A stretch of 31,735 bases of DNA from a virus: the IMG/VR virus record IMGVR_UViG_3300042320_001097, positions 1-31,735 of that record, one strand, 5' to 3'. Of the stretch, positions 1-8,125 are shown piece by piece (position 1 is the stretch's first letter; each line of letters begins with the position of its first letter). Below the pieces are notes generated by a model that saw nothing but the letters and a program-made list of their open reading frames with translations, was not told where the DNA came from and searched no databases. Both the position numbers and the translations under genes were made by a program.

Positions 1-60
1 GTCGGCTGCGGCAGCCCGCAGGCAGAGCTGCAAAAAGCAAAGGCCAGGGGTGCGCTGTGA
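1..60 (+). CDS. C-terminal end of an upstream gene (partial)
   Basis: An open frame enters from the left edge in frame 1 and ends at a TGA at 58-60. Only 19 residues are visible (ending KARGAL), too few to identify a family. The stop overlaps the GTG of the next gene in a GTGA junction, the same coupling used between the following genes, so this fragment is probably the end of another member of the same operon. Its identity could reveal one more step of the modification cassette. Confidence 0.5.
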   Translation, partial: VGCGSPQAELQKAKARGAL

Positions 61-584
61 AGACCGTGCTTTACGTCGTCGGAGCGCCCGGTGTAGGTAA
101 AAGCACTGCGCTCACCGGACTACTCGACAAGTGGGCCACCGCGCTTGTTCAGTCCCCAAAGTGGACATTGAGTGCGCCGATTGCTCTCGTTGGTCACTAC
201 GTAAAGGGCGGCCATGATGGCGGCGACACCGTTCCCTACGACGGTGCGGCAGAGTGCTTGACGTACATGCGCGATGTTCTGTTGCAAGATCACCGCCTGC
301 ATGGCTTTGTGCTGGATGGTGACCGCTTTACAACCTCTACCTGCCGTCAGTTCACTGACGGCCTACCTGGCATCCGTGTTGTGTGTGTTCATCTACAAGC
401 CAGTGACGCAACACTCACAGCCAGACGGACAGCCAGGGGCAGCACGCAGAACCCAACATGGATGCTCGGCCGCAACACGAAGGCGGCACGGTTTGCTGAC
501 AGCTTCCCCGACGCGGTACGGCTGCAGACTGATGAAATGAGGCCGGATGAAGTCACCCAGGCAATACGGGAACTGTTGCGGTGA
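57..584 (+). CDS. P-loop kinase, 5-hydroxymethyl-dU DNA kinase-like
   Basis: The 175-residue product has a Walker A loop GAPGVGKST at residues 9-17, a second conserved block around 45-60 (GHYVKGG...GGDTVPYD), a Walker B-like stretch FVLDGDRF at 84-91, and a late basic block with RG at 126-127 followed by QNPTWMLGRNTK. This order (lG.Y, GxD, lxGDRf, Rg..q...gR.TK) is what I remember of phage 5-hmdU DNA kinases, which phosphorylate 5-hydroxymethyluracil within DNA to make a leaving group for later substitution. The match is from memory, not from a search. The start is GTG at 57, with AGGGG 6 bases upstream and a GTGA overlap with the preceding stop. It overlaps the sulfotransferase-like gene by 4 bases. 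A generic nucleotide kinase is the alternative, but the amino acid:DNA transferase-like gene three genes downstream favours the DNA-modification role. Confidence 0.72.
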   Translation: MKTVLYVVGAPGVGKSTALTGLLDKWATALVQSPKWTLSAPIALVGHYVKGGHDGGDTVPYDGAAECLTYMRDVLLQDHRLHGFVLDGDRFTTSTCRQFTDGLPGIRVVCVHLQASDATLTARRTARGSTQNPTWMLGRNTKAARFADSFPDAVRLQTDEMRPDEVTQAIRELLR

Positions 585-1624
585 GCGCATCGCCAGTCGC
601 ACTTGCAGAGCCAGATCTTGCGAAAGTGAAAGCTTTGCTTCTGGACACGGCATCACCCGTACACGGTGATCCATCGTGTGTAGTGGTGTTGTTGTCTGCG
701 AGCCGTAGTGGAAGCAGCACGGTGCATGACCTGCTGGCCCGGTGCGATGCCGTCGCGGCCTTGCCAGGAGAGATTGAGCCATACCTGCGATTGACTGGTA
801 ACGCGCAAGGCGTAGATGGAAGTAACGAGGTCACTTCCTTCACAAACATCGAAGAACTGCGCGCGCTTGTCCGCACGGATCTGCGCCTATGGTCGCAACC
901 TCTACCGCTGGTTCATGGTTCTGATTGGCATCAGCGTCGCCTGTTGTTTCAGTCTCCTATGGGCTTGGAGCTGGACGAAGGCTGGTATGACGGTTGCAGC
1001 AGACCGCCCGCTTCCAATCTCACGGTCTTGGAAGAGCCGCCACTGGTTCCAATAGCAGATGCGGTGAAGCCGGGTAGCCTAAACGGCGTCAAACTCATAC
1101 TCAAAACACCACAACTCGTCTATCGACGTGGGCTGGTGGAGGCGCTGTTTCCAAACAGTCCGGTTCACTACCTACACCTAAGACGCAGCGCGCCGGGGAC
1201 TGTCAACGGACTGCTTGATGGGTGGCTTGGTCCACACTTTTGGTCATATCGACTACCAGCGCCTGATGGGGCGGCGATGCCTGACTGGTGGTGCTTTGAT
1301 GTGCCGCCAGGATGGCACGCGACACGAGGACTGCTTGATGCCTGTGTGCTGCAATGGGTTGCCGCCAACACGGCTGCGCTTCTGCACCCGCTGGTGGGGC
1401 ATCTCCACTACGAGGACTTGTGGAGGCCGCAAGCAGAGCAACGAATAGCAGCCGCTTGTGGGATTGCCGTTGAGGCACGGCTACGTACAGTGATGGCGAC
1501 AGAACAGCCGGCTGAAAGACGCTGGGCAACCAAGCGGCCAGAACTTGCAGGCTTGATGGAGAGGAATGACGTTACACAGCTCATGGAGCAGCTGGGTTAC
1601 GTGAATGGAGGTGTCCAGTGGTAG
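581..1624 (+). CDS. Sulfotransferase-like protein
   Basis: This 347-residue protein has a PAPS-sulfotransferase-like 5'-phosphosulfate loop, SASRSGSS at residues 39-46, after a hydrophobic strand (CVVVLL). An acidic GEIEPYL segment follows at 63-69. A second strand ends in YLHLRRSAPGTVNG at 197-210, which resembles the 3'-phosphate binding site (strand, Arg, Ser/Asn further on). The length fits the family. Sulfotransferases move a sulfo group from PAPS to a hydroxyl or amine. Here the gene sits between a 5-hmdU kinase-like gene and an amidinotransferase-like gene with 4- and 7-base overlaps, so the acceptor may be a modified base, a precursor, or a small amine; that is inference. The GTG start at 581 is fixed by the GTGA overlap. 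Some sulfotransferase-fold proteins have other activities, so the reaction is not certain. Confidence 0.6.
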   Translation: MSASPVALAEPDLAKVKALLLDTASPVHGDPSCVVVLLSASRSGSSTVHDLLARCDAVAALPGEIEPYLRLTGNAQGVDGSNEVTSFTNIEELRALVRTDLRLWSQPLPLVHGSDWHQRRLLFQSPMGLELDEGWYDGCSRPPASNLTVLEEPPLVPIADAVKPGSLNGVKLILKTPQLVYRRGLVEALFPNSPVHYLHLRRSAPGTVNGLLDGWLGPHFWSYRLPAPDGAAMPDWWCFDVPPGWHATRGLLDACVLQWVAANTAALLHPLVGHLHYEDLWRPQAEQRIAAACGIAVEARLRTVMATEQPAERRWATKRPELAGLMERNDVTQLMEQLGYVNGGVQW

Positions 1625-2451
1625 GGTTACAGGTCGTCAACCCGGATGGTCGGCTACGTTCAGTGCTGGTATCCAGTGCTGACAAGCTTGCGGCATCCTT
1701 GCCGGCCGCTGTTCCCGCAAGCTGGCTCGCCATGCCAGACGCAAAGGGTCTGATGGCAGAAGTGGAAGCATTCCACGACTTCTTGCGATCGCGCTTGCAG
1801 CTTGTTGTTGTCGACGTGGCCGACGCAACGCTGTTTGATGGCCTGTATGCGCGCGATTACGGCGCCGTCGTCAATCAGACGCTGTATCTGATGCGCAGTC
1901 CAGTGCCGCATCGTGCGCCAGAACGAGACAGGGTGGCTGACGAGCTGCAAAGGCTTGGAATCAAGGCAGTGTGCGCGCCAGATGATGTCTATGGTGAGGG
2001 AGCAGACCTGCTTCCGCTTTCGCAGGGCCGATGGGCAATCGCAACCGGACGGCGCACAACACAAGGCATGGCCTTATGGATGCGCTCGCAGCTTCCATCA
2101 GATCAAGTCCTCTATCGAACCAAAAAGCGTGGACCTGATGTGCCTCAGCACCTGCTGGGTGGCAACCGCATCCTCAACGGGGTGCTTTACCACCGCGCAG
2201 ATGTCGAGCCACTGCCAGGATGGACGGGCGAGTGCGTCAGTCTGAATGTCAATGATGAGGTTGGCAGCAAGCTCGGCATGAACTGGCTCGTGCTGGACAG
2301 GGCGGAAGTCGTGATGGCAGAGGACTGCCCAGGAGTGCGAGCCATGCTGGAGAAAAAAGGCATCAAAGTTCATGTTCTGCCGATGGCTAACATCAGGGCA
2401 ATGGGGGGCGGCTTTGCCTGCGCCACGTTGCCGCTGTGGAGAGATCTATGA
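1618..2451 (+). CDS. Pentein-fold amidinotransferase / amidinohydrolase-like protein
   Basis: The 277-residue product resembles the pentein superfamily (glycine amidinotransferase, dimethylargininase, arginine deiminase). Visible features are ARDYGAVV at residues 78-85, EGADLLPL at 127-134, a GRRTTQG turn at 144-150, and a C-terminal glycine-rich motif GGGFACATLPL with the expected nucleophile Cys268. These enzymes attack the guanidinium carbon of arginine-like substrates and either transfer the amidino group to an amine or hydrolyse it. By eye, the usual His-(Leu/Ile)-Asp motif before the last strand appears as VSLN (207-210), so the general-base His may be replaced or supplied elsewhere, for example by H178. 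The start is GTG at 1618 with GGAGGTG at 1607-1613; a later start is unlikely because MVGLQVVNPDG begins the first strand. It overlaps the sulfotransferase-like gene by 7 bases and the next gene by 4. Confidence 0.68.
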   Translation: MVGLQVVNPDGRLRSVLVSSADKLAASLPAAVPASWLAMPDAKGLMAEVEAFHDFLRSRLQLVVVDVADATLFDGLYARDYGAVVNQTLYLMRSPVPHRAPERDRVADELQRLGIKAVCAPDDVYGEGADLLPLSQGRWAIATGRRTTQGMALWMRSQLPSDQVLYRTKKRGPDVPQHLLGGNRILNGVLYHRADVEPLPGWTGECVSLNVNDEVGSKLGMNWLVLDRAEVVMAEDCPGVRAMLEKKGIKVHVLPMANIRAMGGGFACATLPLWRDL

Positions 2452-3404
2452 CAGATGCGCTTGATCCAACGTCATGGCCCTTGTGGTCTGTGTTCATTCG
2501 CTTTGCACGTCGTCAGCTGGAAACGCTCGACTACGACCCGTTCCATCCGATGCTGGTGCACCTACAGCGCGGCACGAGTGTTGATGAAGGCTTGTGGTCC
2601 AGCTTCCTTTACATGGCCTTCTACAACCTGGGATCAGCCTACTGTGCGTGGACAACAACACGTCCGATGCAGGCACTTCCAGCAATAGCGGACCGATGGT
2701 CTATCGGAACGCAAAGACGCAACCTGCGAGCAAGCAGTGTTTGCAAGCATGTTGAGTCATTGGCATCGCAAGCCAGACCGCACGGGAGCCTCTACAGCTT
2801 CTTCACACATGACTTCACTGGTAACGAAAAGGCAGATTGGCTAAGCCTTCTGAACAGGCTGGAAGGCGTGTGGGGTAACGGAAGGTGGGGCGCTTACACG
2901 ACAGCTGAGCTGCTACAGAAAGTGAACCAGCTACCAGTGCAGCCAGCAACCCTTGGATTGGAAGGAGCCACAGGCCCACGAAAGGGACTGGTGGTGCTGA
3001 CGGGCCTATCAGCGGAAACCAGCACGGAGGTCATGCAGGTGTATGGTGACGCGCTACTGGCCAAGCTACGCAGCCTGTTTCCAAACCCCCGCATCCCCTG
3101 GGCAAGACACGGCATTGACTTCGCAATGACCGAAAGCATCCTCTGCGACTTCTACGGCTTGACCAAGGGTCGCTACTACATCGGGCGGGACATAGACCGT
3201 GAGGCAGGACGGATACTGTCTCAAAGTGGTCGAACTGACGTGGATATGGGTCCCTTGTGGGCCGCACGCGCCACAGTGTTCCCACCTCACCTGCTTGCTG
3301 AGCGACGGAGGACCGTGCTGGACATTGATTATGAAAGAGCGCGGGTCTACAAAGAGACTGGCCTGCTGGCAGACTACCGTGACGACTTCCCTTTGCTGCC
3401 ATGA
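2448..3404 (+). CDS. Amino acid:DNA transferase-like protein (aGPT-Pplase family)
   Basis: This 318-residue, mostly helical protein contains blocks I recognise from the alpha-glutamyl/putrescinyl thymine pyrophosphorylase family, later called amino acid:DNA transferase. They are a helix LYMAFYNLGSAYCAW at residues 54-68, GTQRRNLR at 87-94, VWGNGRWGAYTTAELLQKV at 141-159 and GPRKGL at 176-181. Family members replace the (pyro)phosphate on activated 5-hydroxymethyl-dU in phage DNA with an amine such as an amino acid or putrescine. No search was possible; the call rests on remembered motifs. The ATG at 2448 overlaps the previous stop as ATGA and has GGAGAG a few bases upstream, so it is preferred over the in-frame GTG/ATG codons at 2436-2448. 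It is the last gene of the four-gene overlapping set; a new promoter-like site follows. Confidence 0.7.
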   Translation: MTDALDPTSWPLWSVFIRFARRQLETLDYDPFHPMLVHLQRGTSVDEGLWSSFLYMAFYNLGSAYCAWTTTRPMQALPAIADRWSIGTQRRNLRASSVCKHVESLASQARPHGSLYSFFTHDFTGNEKADWLSLLNRLEGVWGNGRWGAYTTAELLQKVNQLPVQPATLGLEGATGPRKGLVVLTGLSAETSTEVMQVYGDALLAKLRSLFPNPRIPWARHGIDFAMTESILCDFYGLTKGRYYIGRDIDREAGRILSQSGRTDVDMGPLWAARATVFPPHLLAERRRTVLDIDYERARVYKETGLLADYRDDFPLLP

Positions 3405-5344: not shown

Positions 5345-5769
5345 CCTTGCCTCAACGTGTGGCTGCCGCGCCGTGGTGGCGCTGGCCCATCGGCTGTGCG
5401 GTGCGCACGCCCGGCTGCGCGGATCTGCTGCGGGTGGTGGGGCACCAGCACGTGCAGCGGGCGCCGCACCTGCGCCTGCGGGTGCACGCGCGCGGGCTGG
5501 TGGAGCTGACGATGCGGGCCACGGCCTGCGCGCCCGCGCTGGACGACGACGCCACCGCCGCGCTGCTGCTGGCGGCCCTGTGGGCGCACGACCCCGAGTG
5601 GCACACCCACCACGACGCGGAGGGCTACGTGGCGCACGTAGACCCGCGCAGGGGCGAGTGGACGGCGCAGGTGCGGGGCGAGGCGCTGGCGCTCGCTGCG
5701 CTTGCCTGCCTTGGCGAGAACGGGATGGCGGGCGTCTGGCCTGCAATCAAAACAAAGGATGAACCATGA
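5332..5769 (+). CDS. Hypothetical protein, 145 aa
   Basis: No family is recognised. The sequence is strongly GC-rich compared with the genes before it and is rich in Ala, Arg, His and Trp. An acidic stretch ([19 protein letters not shown]) and a [10 protein letters not shown] helix suggest a helical soluble protein. The GTG start at 5332 overlaps the preceding stop by 13 bases, and its end overlaps the dUTPase start as ATGA, which supports the frame. It appears to belong to the same transcription unit as the nucleotide-metabolism genes. Confidence 0.6.
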
Positions 5770-6212
5770 CAACCCGTGACCATCACGTGCTCGTGCACGC
5801 ATCGCCTGCTGCTGTGGGCCTCCCCGAGTACGCAAGCAAAGGGGCCGCAGGCGCGGACCTACGCGCCGCGTCCGCCGTAGTGCTGGACCCTGGCTGCACC
5901 GCGCTGGTGCCGACCGGCATCAGCCTGCAGCTGCCGCCCGGTGTGGAGGCGCAGGTGCGCCCACGCAGCGGGCTGGCAATGAAGCACGGCATCACCGTGC
6001 TCAACGCGCCCGGCACCATTGACAGCGACTACCGGGGCGAGGTCAAGGTGTTGCTGGTGAACCACGGACGGGATGCGGTGCAGCTGGAGCGCGGCGACCG
6101 CATCGCGCAGCTGGTGCTGGCCCCGGTGCTGAGGGGCGTGTGGCTACCCGTGGACGAGCTGGACGAAACGGAGCGCGGGGCTGGTGGCTTTGGCTCAACG
6201 GGTCGCACATGA
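5766..6212 (+). CDS. dut: dUTP diphosphatase (trimeric dUTPase)
   Basis: All five trimeric dUTPase motifs are present in 148 residues: AGADLR (29-33 region), PRSGL (66-70), GTIDSDYRG (83-91) with the catalytic Asp, RGDRIAQL (109-116), and the glycine-rich C-terminal arm [10 protein letters not shown] (137-146). It hydrolyses dUTP to dUMP and pyrophosphate. This limits uracil in DNA and supplies dUMP, the precursor of dTMP and, in hypermodifying phages, of hydroxymethyl-dUMP. The length is normal and the enzyme looks complete. The ATG at 5766 and the stop at 6212 both form ATGA overlaps with neighbours. In this genome it plausibly feeds the modified-base pathway encoded at 57-3404. Confidence 0.95.
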
Positions 6213-6751
6213 AGACGCGGGTCCTGCATCTTGCACTACGAGCAGACGGACCCGCGCCGTGGTCCCCTTGGATCACCGCCTGTGGGCGCAAGGAATGGGA
6301 AGAAGATCTGGCAACCGACGAAACGAAAGTGTCGTGTAAGGCGTGCCTGAGAACTGAGGCTGGGAGAGACGCGGTGGCAGAACAGACGGTGCTGGCTATG
6401 GGGCTAAGCCCCACGCCCGCCGCCACGTGCGCCACCGTGCCATGCGATCAAGAAAAAGGACCAACCCCGCTGGAGACTGGGCTACTTATCAACCTTCCAC
6501 CTCAACTATTGGTGGACATACAGGCACGCGCCGCCTTGGGGCGCGACAAGTATGGAATGCAGCTGCGCGCACCGTGGCCGCAGGGGCTGAACGAGGCACT
6601 GCCCGAGCTGCTGGATGCGGTTGCATACCTATTGTCCAGCGGCCATCCAGACTCGACCTCGCTCGTGCGCCAGCTGGTGCCCATCATCGGGCAGCTGCAC
6701 CGGCTGCTGCGCGGCGAGCCAGCGTGGCCAGCATCGCCCGAGGCGCTGTGA
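6209..6751 (+). CDS. Zinc-site plus MazG-like helical protein, 180 aa
   Basis: Two parts are visible. The first 50 residues carry a likely zinc site (H7, C25, C43, C46 in VLHLAL, TACG and SCKAC) of a type common in small phage proteins. The second part (about 86-150) contains [14 protein letters not shown] and [17 protein letters not shown], which resembles the all-alpha MazG/dNTP pyrophosphohydrolase helices with an E..LD metal-binding pattern. It may hydrolyse a nucleotide to tune pools for DNA synthesis, in line with the adjacent dUTPase. The ATG at 6209 overlaps the dUTPase stop as ATGA and is preferred over the in-frame codon at 6140 inside dut. The full EExxE..D set is not clear, so activity is uncertain. 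Confidence 0.6.
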
Positions 6752-6833
6752 TGCGCGGCGGGCACCGCTTCCTCGGTGCAGTGTAAAAAGCGTGGATGGC
6801 CAAAGTCATTGTGAGTGAAGGAGGTATAGGATA

Positions 6834-7232
6834 GTGACACAAGATCAGGTATGCGAAGTGATTGTTGGCCTCGGTGGCAAAGAATACCCCGATGCCCAAA
6901 GGTCAGGCGCTACTCGCTGCTTCTACATGAAGCGACTTGTTGGTGTAGCAAAGTGCGGCCTAAACGACAGGGCGCCGAGCATTCACGTCATCACCCATGC
7001 CGACTTTGAGGACACCTACAATAATCAACGGTTTGACGGTGGCGTTGAGTTTACGGTTAGTGGTCAGGCTGGTGGCGGGCGCTGGATGAAAGCTCTGATC
7101 TACGGCGTTAGCCGTGATGAAGTGCAAGGTCTGATGCCAACAATCGAAGCAACGGCAGCTGCCGTATGGTCGGCTTTCGTGGCCTCGCTTGAACACGAGG
7201 ACAAGGCAACTGCCAGCAACAACGGCGACTGA
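6834..7232 (+). CDS. Hypothetical protein, 132 aa
   Basis: The product is unrecognised: a soluble mixed alpha/beta protein with VCEVIVGLGG near the N-terminus, GGVEFTVSGQAGGGRW in the middle and a long C-terminal helix. The GTG start at 6834 has a perfect AAGGAGGT (6818-6825) 8 bases upstream, the best ribosome site in the window, which predicts strong translation. An 82-base gap before it contains a small hairpin (GCACCG 6762-6767 / CGGTGC 6774-6779). It is the last plus-strand gene; the minus-strand structural operon converges on it. Confidence 0.7.
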   Translation: MTQDQVCEVIVGLGGKEYPDAQRSGATRCFYMKRLVGVAKCGLNDRAPSIHVITHADFEDTYNNQRFDGGVEFTVSGQAGGGRWMKALIYGVSRDEVQGLMPTIEATAAAVWSAFVASLEHEDKATASNNGD

Positions 7233-7302
7233 TGAGGTGTAGGGTTTACGGTTGCCACGTGGCGCACCGCTAACCCCGCGCCGCAAGGGGCAAGGCAGCC
7301 TG

Positions 7303-7521
7303 TTAGGGCCGCGCTACACCACCCCTGCGTGCAACGGCTACCCGCAACACCGGCCCGGCTTGTGGTGTGTTTATGGGCGCTGTGGGTGCGGGCGCCGCAT
7401 CTTCACGGTGATTGCGCACCATCTGCAGTGGAGCCGTGCCAAGCTCTACACGGCAGGTGTGCACATCATCCCGTGCAGCCATCACCAGTGCGAGCAGTTC
7501 ATCCCGCAGGCTGTATGTCAT
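7303..7521 (-). CDS. Hypothetical protein, 72 aa
   Basis: This small protein is unrecognised. It has a helical, Leu/Ala-rich first half (LRDELLALVMAARDD) and a Pro/Ala-rich tail. The ATG at 7521 is supported by GGAG 8 bases upstream and by an ATGA overlap with the stop of the gene before it (7518), the usual arrangement in this operon. It is the final gene of the minus-strand late operon. A plus-strand frame over the same bases is discussed separately and considered less likely. Confidence 0.58.
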   Translation of the reverse strand: MTYSLRDELLALVMAARDDVHTCRVELGTAPLQMVRNHREDAAPAPTAPINTPQAGPVLRVAVARRGGVARP

Positions 7522-7820
7522 GGCAGGCGCTCCAAGGTGGTGTGGATCTGCTGTAGTGATTGATCCACGCTCACAAGTCGCTGGTCAATGCGGGCAAGTA
7601 GCTGCTGATCTGATCTCTGGTGCTGTTCCAGCTGTGCAACGCGAGGCACAAGCTGTGCACCCTCCGTGCGGTCGCTCACCGTTTTCAGCTCGTCCAAACG
7701 ACGATGAAGGGTGGCGATGTGCTCCCGCGTCCTATCACTTGTGCGAACCCACACGCGCTCCAGTGTCACCAGGGCGGACAAGGCAAGGCCCGCCCAGCCC
7801 ACTACCTCGTCCGCCGTCAC
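7518..7820 (-). CDS. Small membrane-anchored coiled-coil protein (holin- or spanin-like context)
   Basis: The 100-residue product starts with a moderately hydrophobic segment (VVGWAGLALSALVTLERVWV, about residues 6-25). A charged coiled-coil region then runs to the end, with heptad-like Leu/Val/Ile spacing (ATLHRRLDELKTV, RVAQLEQHQ, LLARIDQRLVSVDQSLQQI). This layout is common in small phage membrane proteins coded after tail fibres, including holin-like and Rz-like proteins, but no specific family motif is visible. The GTG at 7820 overlaps the previous stop as GTGA. One transmembrane segment and a cytoplasmic coil is the simplest model. Confidence 0.62.
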   Translation of the reverse strand: MTADEVVGWAGLALSALVTLERVWVRTSDRTREHIATLHRRLDELKTVSDRTEGAQLVPRVAQLEQHQRSDQQLLARIDQRLVSVDQSLQQIHTTLERLP

Positions 7821-8125
7821 GGCTGCACCCGGCGCCGTGCAGGCGGTATGGCGTCGGCGGGCGGCGCCGCCGCAGCGGCAGCCGTAGCCACGGCAGGCGC
7901 GCCTATCGCATCCGTGGTGGGGATCTCACGACCCTCTACCACGTAGCGAAGGTCGGCCTGCCGCAGCGCGAGGCTGTGCACGTCCACGTCGGGGTGCTCG
8001 GGGTCGTTGACCCCACGCACCGCCAGCAGCACCACCATCCCCTGCAGGAACGGGTGCTGCACCAGCGAGGCGGCGCGCAGCGTCACCTCGCCGGTAGGGC
8101 TGGCCCAGCGGACGAGCACAGCCAC
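7817..8125 (-). CDS. Hypothetical protein, 102 aa, downstream of tail fibre
   Basis: I cannot assign a family. The first two thirds look beta-rich (VRWASPTGEVTLRAASLV, MVVLLAVRGV, DVHSLALRQADLRYVV) and the C-terminus is an Ala/Pro-rich low-complexity tail. The GTG start at 8125 lies 5 bases after the tail-fibre stop; the ATG at 8130 is in a different frame. A four-base overlap links it to the membrane coiled-coil gene. It could be a small structural or fibre-assembly protein. Confidence 0.6.
   Translation of the reverse strand: MAVLVRWASPTGEVTLRAASLVQHPFLQGMVVLLAVRGVNDPEHPDVDVHSLALRQADLRYVVEGREIPTTDAIGAPAVATAAAAAAPPADAIPPARRRVQP

Follow-up and report, generated by a model that had tools for sequence, protein, structure and literature searches.

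The 31,735-nucleotide stretch of viral DNA analysed here (the window) encodes a sulfotransferase-fold protein and a pentein as a pair within a conserved operon that very probably serves DNA hypermodification. The kinase and amino acid:DNA transferase (ADDT) core of this operon is known; new is the pair in the tailoring slot, which lies outside the DNA modifications described in the literature searched. We hold the core pathway assignment to be very probable, and the view that the pair provides tailoring enzymes of this pathway is nearly as firm. As a whole explanation, a TET-initiated thymine hypermodification operon building an arginine-derived, sulfonated side chain is slightly favored.

The window opens within a six-gene operon

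The window was 100% identical to positions 28596-60330 of the 79,355-bp viral contig IMGVR_UViG_3300034019_000950 (G001). Since it is an internal piece of this contig, it begins mid-operon, and the operon starts about 1.6 kb ahead of it. There, on the same strand and outside the window, a ParB_N gene recognized by profile match (L001:3992-4732, +) precedes a TET/JBP 2OG-Fe(II) dioxygenase gene (L001:4720-5625, +), the 3' end of which occupies window positions 1..60. The kinase gene starts with the GTG at position 57, in a 4-base overlap with the TET stop, and is followed by the sulfotransferase-fold, pentein and ADDT genes. The original prediction had described a cassette of four genes overlapping by 4, 7 and 4 bases. 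These exist as described (57-584, 581-1624, 1618-2451 and 2448-3404, all on the + strand), but they are the last four of six end-overlapping genes, the ParB and TET/JBP genes upstream of the window having been missed. All six genes recurred in the same order in a second 79-kb phage (G002), with 33-45% protein identity, which argues that the four-gene arrangement is not a product of chance.

The core enzymes match known hypermodification families

The TET/JBP protein scored 87.4 bits against PF12851 (cut-off 34.9, E 8.1e-25), with its HxD...H iron ligands (YHRD and VWHGN motifs) and its YR motif intact. No TS homologue was found in G001 or G002, and a TS-type hydroxymethylase was rejected as the hydroxyl source in both, a TET being present instead. 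Given the TET/JBP gene upstream of the window, TET is the probable source of the hydroxyl, which it would introduce in the DNA itself; a dUMP hydroxymethylase is the less likely source.

The P-loop protein (57..584, +) is a candidate 5-hydroxymethyl-pyrimidine DNA kinase. It matched AAA_33 (5e-7) and, at a borderline 27.4 bits against a cut-off of 27, Ploopntkinase3 (PF18751, 2.9e-6); the latter score was 29.1 for the G002 kinase and 26.4 for the over-long window ORF. The protein resembles actinophage kinases such as Kozie gp4 (1.3e-15), and two actinophage relatives scanned against Ploopntkinase3 gave 3.6e-50 and 7.8e-59. Neither G001 nor G002 gave any match to the HMUDK_hel domain (PF18723) of 5-HMUDK. 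The ADDT gene (2448..3404, +; ATG at 2448, longest ORF from GTG 2436) matched PF18724 with 64.4 bits (cut-off 26.2, 1.6e-17), and its product was 29-45% identical to actinophage and metagenomic ADDTs. Another locus considered as an ADDT relative, L006, was discarded, as it is an unrelated phage gene with a chance DYDPFHPM peptide. The hypermodification core of kinase and transferase proposed at the outset was supported.

The window kinase matches PHROG 800, a group that bears the label "terminase small subunit," and the same annotation is attached to the related LilMcDreamy gp5 (L067:3761-4333). The label may have been carried over from the adjoining terminase gene in actinophages.

The tailoring slot differs from that of described systems

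The TET-ADDT-kinase core is common to cultured actinophages, most of which have ParB first (Tonitrus, PMC11955845; CaiB; Phelemich), and Kozie carries TET, ADDT and kinase. These clusters share with our operon the core, the position of TET near the start and the overlapping gene ends. They differ in the tailoring slot, which holds a FAD/DAO-type oxidoreductase in Phelemich and Kozie, a protein annotated as oxidoreductase in CaiB, an Asp/Arg-hydroxylase-like protein in LilMcDreamy and an unknown protein in Tonitrus; flavoproteins are frequent in this slot of the actinophage clusters, and the sulfotransferase and pentein stand there in our operon. Among 50,697 cultured-phage records, no relative of either protein was detectable.

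Thymidine hypermodification in M6, ViI and phi W-14 (5-NedU, 5-NeOmdU and putrescinylthymidine) was reportedly described by Lee et al. in 2018/2022. The described thymidine tailoring enzymes are of the radical SAM, PLP, flavin and acetyltransferase kinds, and we know of no sulfotransferase or pentein among them. Within the partial coverage of the literature searched, nothing linked either family to phage base modification. The route in M6, ViI and phi W-14 runs from 5hmdU through a 5hmdU DNA kinase to an alkylamine transferase (PMC6449724). Our operon would share its 5-hydroxymethyluracil intermediate and has in common with it a DNA kinase, an ADDT-type transferase and variable tailoring enzymes, but those phages incorporate 5hmdU at replication, whereas the search for a TS homologue here found none and a TET/JBP gene is present. 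The known decorations of hydroxymethyl-dU or -dC comprise glycosylation, amination and carbamoylation (PMC12783734). The earlier suggestion that the two proteins are extra tailoring enzymes outside the described repertoire was supported.

The sulfotransferase-fold protein retains the 5'-PAPS loop

The window protein (581..1624, +; Sulfotransfer_3 superfamily) matched Sulfotransfer_3 weakly when taken alone (E 0.04, 14.6 against a cut-off of 27), while its orthologues passed with 27.1 to 44 (E 6.2e-6, 9.3e-10, 2e-10 and 4e-11). The 5'-phosphosulfate (5'-PAPS) loop SR(S/G/A)GS(S/T) was intact in 15/15 sequences, reading SRSGSS in the window protein. At the 3'-phosphate site, Arg202 is kept and the usual Ser of the Arg...Ser pattern is replaced by an invariant N-G, within the motif N209-G210-L-x-D-G-W. 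The structure model was of low confidence (pLDDT 59.6) and is not usable for residue-level claims; its top fold matches were still sulfotransferases, the best neighbor being the olefin-synthase sulfotransferase 4gox. Sulfation in the family of 4gox prepares elimination. True sulfo transfer from PAPS is plausible and somewhat likelier than not.

In prokaryotic genomes, the sulfotransferase appeared on one contig only, at its edge: a relative at L052:9905-11164, in a Candidatus Kerfeldbacteria MAG, beside ordinary bacterial genes (FtsE/FtsX-like). It may be an integrated phage or a mis-binned piece.

In sequence, the pentein is closest to DDAH and arginine deiminase

The single-domain pentein (1618..2451, +), a member of the guanidine-modifying superfamily, passed PF02274 (7.6e-7). 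Catalytic Asp80, Glu127, Arg146, His178 and Cys268 were kept in all sequences aligned; Arg79, which precedes Asp80, is Lys in one lineage. Its AlphaFold model reached a pLDDT of 86.7 and matched the folds of AGAT, DDAH, ADI and ArgZ. Foldseek ranked AGAT first and also listed the amidinotransferases HsvA, SxtG and StrB1, as well as ArgZ and AgrE. The whole-length profile match was to DDAH (5e-20) and then ADI, with ArgZ and AgrE also among the profile matches, whereas amidinotransferases matched through the C-terminus only (AGAT 2.8e-8, HsvA 2.5e-4, StrB1 4.9e-4).

AGAT and ADI carry an HxD motif, which is required in amidinotransferases and which we take to be His303/Asp305 in AGAT. After the catalytic His, 13/13 pentein sequences had Leu or Ile followed by Leu or Gln, never the HxD Asp, and DDAH carries HLK at these positions in the profile alignment. 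The protein is a 277-aa domain, like DDAH or ArgZ, amidinotransferases having roughly 350-390 aa; the HxD and the long chain with inserts of AGAT and StrB1 are lacking in the pentein and its homologues. Hence, the pentein part of the predicted "pentein/amidinotransferase" held, on profile, fold and catalytic residues, while the amidinotransferase part, weakened as first choice by profile ranking, chain length and the absent HxD Asp, is less well supported than a DDAH/ADI-like enzyme.

The pentein thus shares with DDAH, arginine deiminase, ArgZ and AgrE the fold, the single domain and the Asp/Glu/Arg/His/Cys active-site positions, and with DDAH also the lack of an HxD aspartate. Its identity to DDAH is only 16-18% in structural alignment, and the phage operon context implies a substrate different from theirs. 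Guanidino chemistry is reasonably probable, and to a like degree we favor a hydrolase over an amidinotransferase. Hydrolysis of a guanidino group is the simplest reading of the DDAH-nearest profile, the absent HxD Asp and an arginase that takes the place of the pentein in one contig (G016, below).

The pair occurs in two genomic contexts

Profile scans of IMG/VR provided further contigs. The sulfotransferase gene was directly followed by the pentein gene in 11 contigs (two near-identical), and in G014 two small genes lay between them. By identity, the sulfotransferase-pentein contigs represent about nine divergent phage lineages, and the pairing was recovered independently from both queries. 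The order was sulfotransferase-ADDT-pentein in G017 and sulfotransferase-ADDT-arginase (PF00491 5.1e-13) in G016, a 61-kb phage contig which also encodes HMUDK_hel and a dUMP-type TS homologue. The arginase-family gene (L045:2064-2744) overlaps the ADDT gene, and this replacement was seen in one contig only; phages were reported to lack arginase homologues (PMC9992855).

In one context, the pair accompanies ADDT, together with TET in G001, G002 and G017 or with a TS homologue in G005 and G016. An Asn at the specificity position of TS homologues denotes a dUMP enzyme (PMC8670742). This Asn was present in G005 and G016, as in every ADDT contig with a TS homologue found and read. The 188-kb phage G005 carries an AdoMet_dc/SpeD homologue (L005:6766-7113) shortly upstream of its ADDT-sulfotransferase-pentein genes. 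A variety of SpeD homologues from phages have been reported to decarboxylate arginine or ornithine (PMC10407285, PMC9992855), and this one may do so too.

In the other context (G007-G015 group), the gene order was P-loop kinase, sulfotransferase, pentein, TS-like gene and APH kinase, and in most contigs another TS homologue flanked these genes on one side or the other. The cassette at L031:9405-14686 ends with a dCMP-hydroxymethylase-like gene, as do those of other large phages (L029, L030, L032-L036, L044, L048), and several large phages of this type encode a pair of TS homologues. Among solved structures, the second TS homologue of L031 was most closely related to CMP hydroxymethylase and T4 dCMP hydroxymethylase. 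Its specificity position is occupied by Asp, which was also true of the others read. ADDT (PF18724) had no match in the contigs of this group, and HMUDK_hel and Ploopntkinase3 were absent from those tested. The locus resembles 5hmC hypermodification (T4-type glycosylation; carbamoylation, PMC8670742) in that dCMP-hydroxymethylase-like genes adjoin the pair, but it has the sulfotransferase-pentein pair with APH-type and P-loop kinases instead, no glycosyl- or carbamoyltransferase being seen among the genes scanned there.

With the pair standing beside dCMP-hydroxymethylase-like genes where ADDT was not recognized, it is not tied to thymine, and a model based on amino acid transfer must be incomplete for this group. 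The original prediction had missed this second context. The pair fits a tailoring module for hydroxymethyl-pyrimidines and looks portable.

A proposed pathway and its alternatives

From family knowledge, we infer the following steps, their order and their protective role. Hydroxylation of thymine by TET would give 5-hydroxymethyluracil within the DNA. The kinase would phosphorylate this hydroxyl, and ADDT would swap the phosphate for an amine or amino acid; the incoming molecule probably bears a guanidino group (arginine or agmatine). Arginine is suggested by the pentein, by the arginase of G016 and, weakly, by the SpeD homologue of G005. Hydrolysis of the guanidino group by the pentein would then either leave a ureido/citrulline-like side chain or cleave the group, and the sulfotransferase-fold protein would sulfonate a hydroxyl or nitrogen of the side chain. 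The resulting bulky, charge-altered base could shield phage DNA from host nucleases. It is possible, though doubtful, that a portable two-enzyme module (sulfotransferase-fold protein with pentein or arginase) decorates both hydroxymethyluracil and hydroxymethylcytosine with an arginine-derived, sulfonated side chain.

If true, DNA base modification would gain two new kinds of group, one guanidino-derived and one sulfo. A pair serving both types of system, thymine and cytosine, would extend the known chemistry, provide DNA-labelling enzymes and point to new targets that anti-phage nucleases may have. This prediction is a concrete one, as co-expression of a few genes in E. coli would be expected to give a nucleoside whose mass can be foretold.

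The pentein lends itself to two other roles, both rather improbable. As an amidinotransferase, it would move the amidino group of arginine onto the amine installed by ADDT (+42), and the sulfotransferase would sulfate the product. The pentein fold, the Foldseek ranking and the C-terminal match to AGAT agree with this, but the whole-length profile order, the short single domain and the HxD Asp missing in 13/13 sequences do not, nor does the arginase of G016. With a DDAH/ADI-like pentein and this arginase, the +42 transfer is no more likely than an enzyme that removes or deiminates a guanidino group. Alternatively, the pentein (in G016, the arginase) would never touch DNA and would act on free arginine, supplying ornithine or citrulline to ADDT as the arginine dihydrolases ArgZ and AgrE do. 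Both proteins are among its profile and fold matches, and arginase and dihydrolase alike yield ornithine; however, contigs that lack ADDT conserve the pair just as well, and an enzyme that only supplied substrate would have no need of a sulfotransferase partner.

It is unlikely that the sulfotransferase activates rather than decorates, making a sulfate leaving group out of the hydroxymethyl or of a hydroxyl on the side chain, in parallel to phosphorylation by the kinase. The 4gox match and the lack of a visible ADDT in the dCMP-hydroxymethylase group speak for such a role, but kinases are present in both contexts and a second activator seems redundant. Some phage TETs reportedly act on 5-methylcytosine (Burke et al. 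2021). A hypermodified cytosine made in this way is the least probable of these readings: the C5-methyltransferase gene near the G002 cassette and the pairing with dCMP-hydroxymethylase-like genes elsewhere favor it, whereas G001 had no match to PF00145 and the TS homologues found and read in ADDT contigs were of the dUMP type.

Genes surrounding the operon

In G002, the C5-cytosine methyltransferase gene (L002:10288-11160, -; PF00145 1.1e-41) lies ~1.3 kb past the cassette. In the window, a dUTPase gene (5766-6212; PF00692, 2e-35) is located 3' of the cassette on the same strand. Elsewhere in G001, a MoxR-type AAA ATPase gene (L011:5256-6506; bpMoxR 1.1e-59) is followed by a gene for a VWA-domain protein (6618-8102).
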